A stretch of DNA of 10,234 bases from Alphaproteobacteria bacterium (GTDB lineage Bacteria > Pseudomonadota > Alphaproteobacteria > Rhizobiales > Hyphomicrobiaceae): the NCBI GenBank assembly GCA_022600335.1, contig JAHZKN010000308.1, positions 1 to 10,234 on the forward strand. Direction: 5' to 3'. Below are positions 4,761-7,387 of the stretch, in pieces. The notes beneath the pieces are model-generated. The model was not told the origin of the DNA and made no database searches. It was given only the letters and a program-made list of their open reading frames with translations. Position 1 is the first letter of the stretch. Every line of letters starts with the position of its first letter. The position numbers and the translations under genes were made by a program.

Positions 4761-4826
4761 TGGCGAGACGTGGGGGGTCTTCCTCGCGTAGTCTTAGCAA
4801 AACAATCGCCACTGGAGATGACTCGA

Positions 4827-5513
4827 ATGAGCACCGCACGAAAGATCCTTCTTGTCGACGACGATGAGGATCTACGCGGATCTCTCAAAGATCAGCTTGC
4901 CCTGCATCAGGAATTTGAAGTTTCTGAAGCCAACACTGCCACCAAAGGCGTCGATCGGGTCAAAGAAAACCAATATGACTTGGTTGTCTTTGACGTTGGC
5001 CTTCCAGACATGGATGGGCGGGAAGCGGTCAGACTGTTGAGAAAATCCGGATTCAAAAATCCGATCATCATGCTCACCGGCAATGATTCTGACGCCGACC
5101 AGATTCTAGGGCTTGACGCCGGCGCCAATGATTACGTCACCAAGCCGTTTAAGTTTGCGGTCTTACTGGCCCGCATTCGTGCGCAGCTGAGGCAACACGA
5201 GCAAAGCGAAGATGCTGTCTTCAAGATTGGTCCGTACATGTTTAAGCCCGCCTCAAAATTGCTGGCCGATGACAAAAAAACAAAAATACGTCTTACGGAA
5301 AAAGAAACGTCCATTCTGAAGTTCTTATATCGATCAGGGGACTCCGTCGTCTCACGCGACGTGTTGCTGCACGAGGTGTGGGGCTACAATGCTGGTGTCA
5401 CCACCCACACCCTCGAAACTCACATTTATCGTCTCCGGCAAAAAATTGAAAAAGATCCATCAAATGCTGAAATTTTGGTGACAGAATCTGGTGGCTATAA
5501 GTTGGTTCCCTAG
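4827..5513 (+). CDS. OmpR/PhoB-family response regulator, orphan
   Basis: Two-component transcription factor of 228 residues. The receiver domain (about 5-122) carries the acidic pair Asp11/Asp12, the phospho-acceptor Asp56 in VVFDVGLPDMDG, Thr84 and Lys106 (YVTKPF). The C-terminal winged helix (about 130-228) has RLTEKETSILKFL, VSRDVLLHEVWG, the recognition-helix region THTLETHIYRLRQKI and the closing GGYKLVP. All phosphorylation residues are present. The start at 4827 is chosen because GGAG lies at 4814-4817; an in-frame ATG at 4818 is too close to it. No histidine kinase is in the window, so partner and target genes are unknown. The neighbouring L,D-transpeptidase-family gene and the cyclic-nucleotide-fold gene are possible targets only by proximity. 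Confidence 0.93.
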   Translation: MSTARKILLVDDDEDLRGSLKDQLALHQEFEVSEANTATKGVDRVKENQYDLVVFDVGLPDMDGREAVRLLRKSGFKNPIIMLTGNDSDADQILGLDAGANDYVTKPFKFAVLLARIRAQLRQHEQSEDAVFKIGPYMFKPASKLLADDKKTKIRLTEKETSILKFLYRSGDSVVSRDVLLHEVWGYNAGVTTHTLETHIYRLRQKIEKDPSNAEILVTESGGYKLVP

Positions 5514-6250: not shown

Positions 6251-6306
6251 ATCGCCGTACAATTTCTAAATCCCCCCAACCCCACATCATCAGGTAACCT
6301 ATTGAT

Positions 6307-6341
6307 AAAAAAGCCCAACCCTGGGGGGACAGGGCTGGGCT
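6307..6341 (-). terminator. Rho-independent terminator on the minus strand
   Basis: Arms AGCCCAGCCCTG (6341-6330) and CAGGGTTGGGCT (6323-6312) pair over 12 positions with one A-C mismatch, followed by six T (6312-6307, the first also the last stem base). The T-run is on the minus strand only. It ends either the candidate small RNA or the ftsK-lolA transcript, which has no strong terminator of its own next to its stop codon. It may also block read-through from the convergent plus-strand gene ending at 6250. Confidence 0.85.
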
Positions 6342-6449
6342 CTATCGGCGCTATGTATGCGCGACACCGGGAGGGATCCGGTGCCTCAGGCTGCGTCATC
6401 GGCTAGACGGGGGGACTACCGATGTAGGTGTTGACGCCTCCTGCATGTT
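6307..6449 (-). ncRNA. Candidate small RNA with C-rich loops
   Basis: The minus strand of this protein-free stretch folds as a chain of hairpins. Helix 1: CAGG-AG-GCGT (6443-6434) with ACGC-AG-CCTG (6396-6387), the AG pairs being tandem G-A mismatches, then after a nine-base bulge CATCGG/CCGATG (6424-6419 with 6402-6397) and TAG/CTA. Helix 2: GGCACCGG/CCGGTGTC (6385-6378 with 6370-6363). Helix 3: GCGC/GCGC (6362-6359 with 6351-6348). Last comes the terminator at 6341-6307. The loops of helix 1, helix 2 and the terminator are C-rich: UCCCCCCGU, AUCCCUC and UCCCCCC. The tandem G-A mismatches exist only on the minus strand, which fixes the orientation. TATTCT (6459-6454) could be a -10 box; the -35 is poor. 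The 5' end is approximate. It does not show the long rod of 6S RNA or the SRP RNA core. It could instead be part of a long lolA 3' untranslated region. Confidence 0.55.
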
Positions 6450-6688
6450 CTAAAGAATAGGACGAAGTGGCGCACCAAAACAGATGGCATGTGCAATCAT
6501 CACGAAAAAGTGATCGTTTTGCCGGATTTTCCACAGTTCTGCGATTGCTTTGCGTTAATTTCGCCACAGGCCTGAGTCGGATGCTCGGCGATCTGAACAA
6601 CGGGAGATCACCAGCTCACAGCGGCCAAGCTGCCACTGCAGCCTCTCCACAGCGCTAACTCTCCGACCTAAAAAACTGCACTATCAGG
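6450..6688. other. Gap downstream of lolA, no gene recognised
   Basis: No convincing protein gene on either strand. A short plus-strand open frame at 6467-6658 has no ribosome binding site and resembles nothing I know. A small inverted repeat ATCAC/GTGAT (6499-6503 and 6510-6514) encloses GAAAAA. Just past the lolA stop, the minus strand has a T-run (6675-6670) after only a 3-bp stem, too weak to call a terminator. Confidence 0.5.
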
Positions 6689-7387
6689 CTAAGGGTGTTG
6701 CATCAGGCCGACCGGCTTGATCTTGAACATCCGAGCGTCGATTTTTTCGTCCTTAACCAAGTTCCCGATTACCACCCGGGTGTCCTGGCCTTGGGCATCC
6801 TTCGTCAGCCATTCCTCAAGCTCGAAGTCTGGCTTGCGCGAAAAGGTCAGTTTGATGTGGCCGGGCGTTGCGCTGTTTTTGTCGCGCAACCCCAACACGA
6901 CCTGATCGTCTGATTCTTTAACACCAGTGATCAACGCATCCCGCAGCAAATCAACATTTTTGCGCAACAGCAAGCGGAACGGCGTTTGGTCCAGCTCGAC
7001 CCGATCTTCATTATTGAGATCGTAGTCTTGGATAGCCAAGAAACGACCGTCAGAGATAATCACCTGGCGGCTTGGCTTATTGTAATTAAAGCGAAATTTT
7101 CCGGGCCGCTGCATGAGGAAGTTGCCTCGCATGGGCCGCTTACCCTTGGCATACTGAATAAACTTGCCTTTGAGATCACCGAGCGAATTGAAGTAGCTTG
7201 CGACCTGCTTAACCAGCTCGGTTTGGCGCTCACTCAGGACCAATCCTGACGTGCCGCGCTTAGCCACTTCCGCACTCCACCCAGACCCCGACGTGCCTGT
7301 GTCTGACTTGTTTTCCTTAGCAAACGCTGCTTGCGCAACGACTACAGCACCAAATACCAATACTGTCAGAGCAGTTTTCAACGTCAT
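6689..7387 (-). CDS. lolA: Outer-membrane lipoprotein carrier protein LolA
   Basis: Periplasmic chaperone that takes lipoproteins from LolCDE at the inner membrane to the outer membrane. The product has 232 residues with a clear signal peptide (about 1-23, cleavage after AFA) and a charged and Ser/Gly-rich stretch, then the LolA fold from about residue 50. Typical elements are VASYFNSLGDLKGKFIQY, GNFLMQRPGKFRFNYNKPS, QVIISDGRFLAIQDYDL and DQTPFRLLLRKNVDLL. It is longer than E. coli LolA, mainly through the region after the signal peptide. AAGGG nine bases before the ATG at 7387 supports the start. It follows ftsK in the same orientation by 193 bases, and co-transcription is likely because no terminator is seen between them. 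Confidence 0.92.
   Translation of the reverse strand: MTLKTALTVLVFGAVVVAQAAFAKENKSDTGTSGSGWSAEVAKRGTSGLVLSERQTELVKQVASYFNSLGDLKGKFIQYAKGKRPMRGNFLMQRPGKFRFNYNKPSRQVIISDGRFLAIQDYDLNNEDRVELDQTPFRLLLRKNVDLLRDALITGVKESDDQVVLGLRDKNSATPGHIKLTFSRKPDFELEEWLTKDAQGQDTRVVIGNLVKDEKIDARMFKIKPVGLMQHP

Follow-up and report, generated by a model that had tools for sequence, protein, structure and literature searches.

A small RNA gene downstream of lolA in Hyphomicrobiaceae, probably a form of the RusT-locus family

Introduction

What occupies the gap behind lolA in this member of the Hyphomicrobiaceae, and does it belong to any small RNA that has already been described? The window analysed here, a stretch of 10,234 nucleotides (contig JAHZKN010000308.1), carries lolA at 6689-7387 on the minus strand (PF03548, 3.1e-30; TIGR00547 stayed below its cut-off). 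About 240 nt behind this gene, on the same strand, a sequence-only reading had placed a small RNA (sRNA) with C-rich hairpin loops. The studied RNA of comparable position is RusT (CCNA_R0199) of Caulobacter crescentus, published as a 118-nt RNA with four stem-loops, encoded between lolA and xth (PMC11005374). According to the same account, its seed is stem-loop 2 (nt 45-57, C53), which pairs with outer membrane protein mRNAs, it requires Hfq, which binds stem-loop 3, and its promoter is bound by NtrX, which represses, while RusT rises on iron starvation or zinc (PMC11005374). As far as that description goes, homologues are named for Caulobacteraceae only (PMC11005374), and among the matches listed from the open-licence literature none extends RusT beyond this family.

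Results

Predicted structure

The candidate sRNA gene covers 6307-6443 on the minus strand, a delimitation that comes from the match of a covariance model (R1), the fold z-score and covariation; the predicted transcript is ~137-143 nt long, with its 5' end predicted at 6443-6449. Stem-loop 1 (6387-6443, minus) is made of an outer helix (6433-6443/6387-6397) and an inner hairpin (6397-6424) with a C6 run at 6409-6414. It is followed on the same strand by stem-loop 2 (6363-6385), with the loop AUCCCUC and CCCUCCC at 6369-6375, by stem-loop 3 (6348-6362), a short GCGC-GCGC hairpin, and by stem-loop 4 (6307-6342), a Rho-independent terminator hairpin with a C6 loop at 6323-6328 and a U6 tract at 6307-6312. 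The region 6300-6460 folds with -69.2 kcal/mol (z = -6.96) and the segment 6307-6449 with z = -6.31, and 0/200 shuffles equal either value; the terminator by itself (6307-6345) reaches z -7.16, its hairpin and U tract being plain in sequence and fold. The minus-strand hairpins and terminator proposed from the letters are thus present, with z of -6 to -7 and no shuffle of 200 as good, and so are the C-rich loops, two of them with six C. R1 matches the window at 6307-6443 with 116.7 bits, a score to be read knowing that the window is one of its 30 training rows. In a consensus scan of the window, neither a sigma-70 promoter on the minus strand nor any terminator was listed.

The sequence-only reading had also pointed to tandem G-A mismatches. 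They are real in the outer helix of the window (A-G/G-A) but incidental, being no family trait: at the corresponding alignment column (5/59) a standard pair is formed by 25 of the 30 rows (24 of 29 when only distinct rows are counted), while four are unpaired and one has a gap.

A shared open reading frame was sought in the 30 homologous rows, where the longest frames differ in start, frame and sequence; a small-protein reading of the locus was dropped, as the rows have no common frame. Elsewhere in the window's own genome (69% complete) the search for further copies of the sRNA returned only matches of 14-24 nt at E 0.9-3.

Covariation among homologues

We aligned the 30 best blastn loci, own included (29 distinct rows), with MAFFT without structure, and derived pairs with RNAalifold. 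The resulting 38 pairs are formed in 97.3% of cells and include 21 with change on both sides, which are compensatory changes of the kind whose absence would have spoken against the sequence-only reading. The covariation exceeds that of shuffles on each of five measures (0/500 as high), and when partners are slid by 1-3 columns only 31.8-45.2% of cells remain paired and only 3-6 pairs change on both sides; it should be noted that the shuffle control can be beaten by relatedness alone, the slid-partner control less so. The outer helix of stem-loop 1 (helix 1), hairpin 2 and the terminator have stems that vary with compensation, both-sided change being found in 7/9 pairs of helix 1, 6/8 of helix 3 and 8/12 of the terminator helix. 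The inner hairpin of stem-loop 1 behaves in another way: none of its seven pairs changes on both sides and four are invariant across the 29 distinct rows, that is, its sequence is kept as well as its pairing. A C run of at least five is present in stem-loop 1 in 29/30 rows and in the terminator loop likewise in 29/30, and CCCTC stands in stem-loop 2 in 28/30 of these close homologues.

For a wider view we hand-picked 40 loci from R1 matches, each with flanks of at most 8 kb, for family breadth and with some single-contig genomes; nine are from outside the order, and R1 matches all 40, as expected from the choice. In these loci 94.1% of cells are paired and 35 of 38 pairs change on both sides, in an alignment that was fitted to R1 and so leans towards it. 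The C run of at least five in stem-loop 1 is found in 39/40, a count favoured by selection with R1, CCCTC of stem-loop 2 in 31/40 and a terminator C run of at least five in 25/40.

Distribution across genomes

Searched with blastn at E < 1e-6, 39 of 100 related genomes match, namely 38/60 of the same family (own included) and 1/40 of the others; at the looser E <= 1 the number rises to 83/100, much of it chance. Of 397 genomes from the order, at least 143, among them the own one, have an R1 match at E <= 1e-3. In a class draw of 289 genomes at least 18 match at E <= 0.01, namely the own genome, one other of the order and 16 from outside it; both counts are lower bounds, with 8 to 11 candidates scored per genome. 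A search of the phylum at E <= 0.01, intended as a negative control but with 175 non-matching genomes of unstated kinship, matched 5/200 genomes; the own genome is one of these five, and all are from its order. When named genomes were scanned for an exact pattern, 109 stretches came up. Among the 80 listed of these 109, most carry Hyphomicrobiales names (Hyphomicrobium, Filomicrobium, Methyloceanibacter, Rhodomicrobium, Kaistia, Bauldia, Prosthecomicrobium, Chthonobacter and others), and the remaining ones are generic proteobacterial bins, one entry with a Hyphomonadaceae label and one with a Cytophagales label.

Two oddities of the named matches deserve mention. The Cytophagales-labelled contig (L095) carries the core motif and is perhaps mis-binned. 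The core motif also occurs twice in each of two metagenome assemblies, JAJFHX (L035, L104) and JAMXLN (L041, L110), which may reflect paralogues or mixed bins.

Poorly matching genomes were approached from the side of the neighbour gene. Forty genomes of the order, 36 of them with no R1 match in the order and phylum searches and four with weak ones, were queried for lolA, and 30 of the 41 lolA matches were fetched. R1 detects the sRNA below 0.02 in 6/30 of these loci, and in 15/30 xth follows lolA at 42-280 nt with no R1 match. Judged from these loci, several families have lost or relocated the sRNA, or their copies have diverged beyond the reach of R1. One may speculate that better-known sRNA screens might have missed it because several families lack it between lolA and xth.

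Genomic neighbourhood

Of the 40 picked loci, 27 have lolA no more than 1200 nt upstream of the sRNA and on its strand, none being detected there in 13; in 24 loci xth follows at up to 1200 nt, again on the sRNA strand. One or both of these same-strand neighbours are found within this distance in 34/40, including six of the nine loci from outside the order. In the window itself and in the four Hyphomicrobiaceae loci of the 40 (L207, L217-L219) xth is absent after the sRNA; the 3' neighbour in the window is a gene with a cyclic-nucleotide domain that faces the sRNA. Together, covariation and conserved place support the sequence-only claim of a small RNA, and the stretch 6307-6443 looks like a real small RNA gene.

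Comparison with the RusT locus

We took one family (f115) as Caulobacteraceae-like on 87% identity to an approximate CtrA query that was run against 80 class genomes, and fetched 24 lolA loci from the 25 genomes searched. The motif UCCCCUCCC stands behind lolA in 16/24 of them and a one-base variant in three more, giving 19/24; the typical order is a hairpin such as GCCGGACUCUAUCCCCUCCCGGC, then GGCGGCAUGAGAGAC, the terminator and xth. At E <= 10, R1 matches 18 of these 24 loci downstream of lolA and on the lolA strand; 11 of these matches are < 0.02, one of the 11 (L242) consisting of the terminator alone; two further weak matches are on the other strand. In the opposite direction, we built a second model (R2) on the 19 Caulobacter-like rows, of which 16 were used after L242, L245 and L252 had been left out and some ends trimmed by hand. 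At E <= 1 R2 hits the sRNA position in 44/47 Hyphomicrobiaceae and wider loci, 28 of them < 0.01; having only nine pairs, it depends largely on the loop of stem-loop 2 and on the terminator, two elements that might arise by convergence. Three loci were missed (L009, L033 and L174), and three matches fell elsewhere at 0.22-0.96.

RusT is known here by its published description, and by that description the likeness is one of plan: both RNAs stand behind lolA, are of similar length (118 nt against about 137 nt) and have four stem-loops of which the last is the terminator. The conserved loop of stem-loop 2 is the seed in RusT, and stem-loop 2 of our sRNA corresponds to it by position and by the loop of the RusT-locus relatives. 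There are also differences. The RusT locus is followed by xth and the window sRNA is not, and the Caulobacter-like relatives have a stem-loop 1 lacking the C run (0/16 rows) and a stem-loop 3 that is mostly of the GGCGGCAUGAGAGAC type. Seven loci outside both groups (L209-L215) combine the traits: stem-loop 2 carries AUCCCCUC(C/U)C in six and UACCCCUCCC in one, and stem-loop 1 has a C run of at least six in 7/7. With both traits present, these loci appear to join the Hyphomicrobiaceae and the Caulobacter-like forms, and the simplest history would be one old RNA with a shared seed hairpin and with a C6 hairpin that the Caulobacter branch either lost or did not acquire.

Upstream region

A -10-like element, CCTATTCT, is seen at 6454-6461 (minus), where relatives have CTTAA-N-T among 30 aligned upstream stretches; it is not in the list of the consensus scan. 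A TTGAA or TTGAC -35 is absent from the window's own upstream stretch, and among the 30 homologous stretches TTGAA occurs in 21 and TTGAC in two, position not being enforced. Further upstream the window has a conserved inverted repeat, TCACTTTTTCGTGA, at 6500-6513 (minus), a possible regulator site. Its pattern TMAC-N6-GTGA is found in 25/30 upstream stretches, ~50-70 nt before the predicted sRNA start, which points to a regulator. The fetched loci as a whole, 101767 bases with these stretches counted in, contain it 27 times. The pattern GGAAC-N14-19-CGTT, which we take to be that of general stress sigma factor promoters, has no match in the window. The NtrX patterns published for other genera, CAA-N2-5-TTG and GCA-N9-TGC (PMC9223101), are absent from window positions 6300-6690, the conserved repeat being of a different pattern.

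Rfam and other RNA classes

The sequence-only reading had recognised no family, and Rfam 15 bears this out: no score comes near a gathering cut-off at the sRNA, in the window or in the further loci scanned. The best score on the window is BSnc120 with 21.8 bits against a gathering cut-off of 114, and at the sRNA of the other scanned loci only anti-hemB on L175 appears (23.6 versus 49.5). The weak matches BSnc120, NsiR1, anti-hemB and DsrA were rejected, since they rest on the terminator and short stems. Away from the sRNA, sub-threshold Rfam matches were seen on other loci, e.g. mir-4433 on L184.

Actinobacterial 6C RNA, or B11, has hairpin loops with six-C runs. Our sRNA shares such runs, but 6C RNA is from another phylum and its Rfam model has no match on the window at E <= 5. 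RsaE/RoxS likewise gave no match in the Rfam scan of the window, and the cuckoo motif in the form quoted by the sequence-only reading, CCUCCUCCC, has 0 matches on either strand of the whole window, in agreement with its view that the motif of the sRNA is a different one. GsrN of Caulobacter uses six tandem C in an exposed loop to pair with the G-rich katG leader, is controlled by the general stress sigma factor and has homologues that typically adjoin the regulators of that factor (PMC5869019); the six-C loop is common to both RNAs, but GsrN is not at lolA. The alpha-r8 RNAs MmgR and SisA-D, as described, are Hfq-associated, have the core UUUCCUCCCU and mostly adjoin an N-formylglutamate amidohydrolase gene (PMC12559287). 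Like our sRNA they are alphaproteobacterial and possess a CCUCCC-containing core, but theirs is single-stranded behind a weak hairpin and at another locus (PMC12559287). In PmaR of Agrobacterium a C-rich loop is required for target regulation; that RNA is reported as one spoon-like stem, found solely in Agrobacterium and Rhizobium sp. IRBG74, and shares with ours the C-rich loop (PMC6234868). It appears, then, that the suggestion of a perhaps undescribed RNA stands insofar as no Rfam family covers it, but that it is probably not wholly undescribed, Caulobacter RusT occupying the same locus.

A separate observation concerns CC2171 (RF01867), considered as a marker for Caulobacter genomes and abandoned, as its matches do not discriminate. 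They are found in 84/385 alphaproteobacterial genomes at E <= 0.001, 13 of them over the cut-off of the family, and therefore reach well beyond its Caulobacter-style name.

Candidate targets

A target search of the own genome found no conserved target of the stem-loop-2 loop. Apart from the sRNA itself, the own genome contains two copies of the complement of this loop, GGGAGGGAT. One of them forms the Shine-Dalgarno sequence and the start (ATAGGGGAGGGATG) for a 98-aa protein, lipoprotein-like by eye and with no Pfam match. The gene (L265:1206-1502 minus, contig C367) matches nine stem-loop-2 bases with its Shine-Dalgarno and start (GGGAGGGATG). Relatives of the protein are matched in 35/60 genomes, own included, and 11 of 30 fetched loci (own included) have a six-letter G-rich stretch near a possible start, which the nearest relative lacks. 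Because start codons were guessed and the count had no control set, the mRNA was dropped as a target; nor is the 9-nt site kept in the nearest relative.

Discussion

We propose, with a probability of roughly three in four, that the locus is an independent gene for a trans-acting sRNA and represents, in Hyphomicrobiaceae, an old alphaproteobacterial RusT-locus family, most likely RusT-like in its action. The members of this family would be encoded behind lolA, many of them with xth on the far side, and RusT would be the one that has been studied. We infer that the sRNA is transcribed from a promoter of its own about 240 nt behind lolA; it would end at its own terminator and present its C-rich loops on rigid hairpins. 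Together with Hfq, by analogy to RusT, the CCCUCCC of stem-loop 2 would pair with G-rich Shine-Dalgarno or early coding sequences of mRNAs, probably for envelope proteins, whose translation would be blocked or which would be destabilised. In Hyphomicrobiaceae the CCCCCC loop of stem-loop 1 might act as a second pairing site and the terminator loop perhaps as a third. We hold to the RusT reading slightly less firmly because xth does not come after the sRNA in Hyphomicrobiaceae and the NtrX patterns are absent.

A separate, new sRNA family might have settled behind lolA independently of RusT, with the C-rich loop a product of convergence, which several alphaproteobacterial sRNAs with anti-Shine-Dalgarno C-rich stretches make conceivable, as do the alpha-r8 RNAs with their similar core UUUCCUCCCU at another locus (PMC12559287). 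Stem-loops 1 and 3 do differ between the Hyphomicrobiaceae and Caulobacter-like forms, R1 misses 6/24 Caulobacter-like loci and most of its matches there are weak, and Hyphomicrobiaceae have no xth after the sRNA. Both forms, however, share the neighbour lolA, its strand and the order of hairpins, intermediate members combine the traits, and R2 returns reciprocal matches in 44/47 loci; separate origins seem to us unlikely. We give about the same low weight to a view that concerns function instead of descent, namely that the RNA mainly binds a protein through stem-loop 1, or soaks up G-rich RNA with it, mRNA pairing being secondary. What speaks for such a protein-binding or sponge RNA is the inner hairpin, with 0/7 pairs changing on both sides and four invariant, unlike helices 1, 3 and 5 (7/9, 6/8 and 8/12). 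Long pairing with a conserved target would leave the same pattern, however, and in the 40 wider loci the pairs of the inner hairpin do vary on both sides (7/7, in the alignment fitted to the model).

Two further explanations deny the RNA a gene of its own. It could belong to the lolA transcript, as 3' untranslated region or as an end produced by processing, and lack its own promoter, as its position on the lolA strand about 240 nt behind the gene would allow and as the missing TTGAA/TTGAC upstream in the window and the consensus scan, with no minus-strand promoter, might suggest. Yet TTGAA is present in 21/30 and TTGAC in 2/30 upstream stretches and the inverted repeat in 25/30, the 1200 nt upstream showed no lolA in 13/40 loci, and RusT is described as having its own, NtrX-bound promoter (PMC11005374); we regard this origin as improbable, more so than the two preceding alternatives. 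That there is no RNA gene at all, only a terminator and chance hairpins in G+C-rich DNA, can appeal to a consensus scan that listed neither a minus-strand promoter nor a terminator, but z-scores of -6 to -7, covariation that beats both shuffles and slid partners, and wide conservation leave it next to no credibility.

Within the RusT-locus reading, the kept sequence of the C6 hairpin of stem-loop 1, typically AUCGGUAGUGCCCCCCGUCUAGCCGA in Hyphomicrobiaceae, leads us to a more tentative idea, which we put somewhat short of even odds. The ancestral alphaproteobacterial sRNA may have had two recognition modules, the RusT seed in stem-loop 2 and a C6 hairpin with its own conserved partner, be it a set of mRNAs, a G-rich RNA or a protein; RusT would then show half of the family's function, and the invariant C6 hairpin would mark a second functional site invisible to work in Caulobacter. 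If the main reading is true, a RusT-locus family found across the class at the same locus would be one of few old alphaproteobacterial sRNAs kept in place, and the link between lolA, iron and the envelope would become testable in genera such as Hyphomicrobium, Methyloceanibacter, Rhodomicrobium and Kaistia.

Some features of the surroundings were seen along the way. Behind the convergent cyclic-nucleotide-domain gene, TCCCCCCA (6271-6278, plus strand) forms an 8-nt inverted repeat with 6322-6329 in the terminator loop, and read-through of that gene would run antisense to the sRNA. Between amtB and the sRNA lies an L,D-transpeptidase-like gene (PF03734; 4186-4839, minus), divergent from a gene for an OmpR-type response regulator (4770-5513, plus), the predicted 5' ends of the two overlapping; in many of the 40 loci both genes also fall within the flanks fetched with the sRNA.
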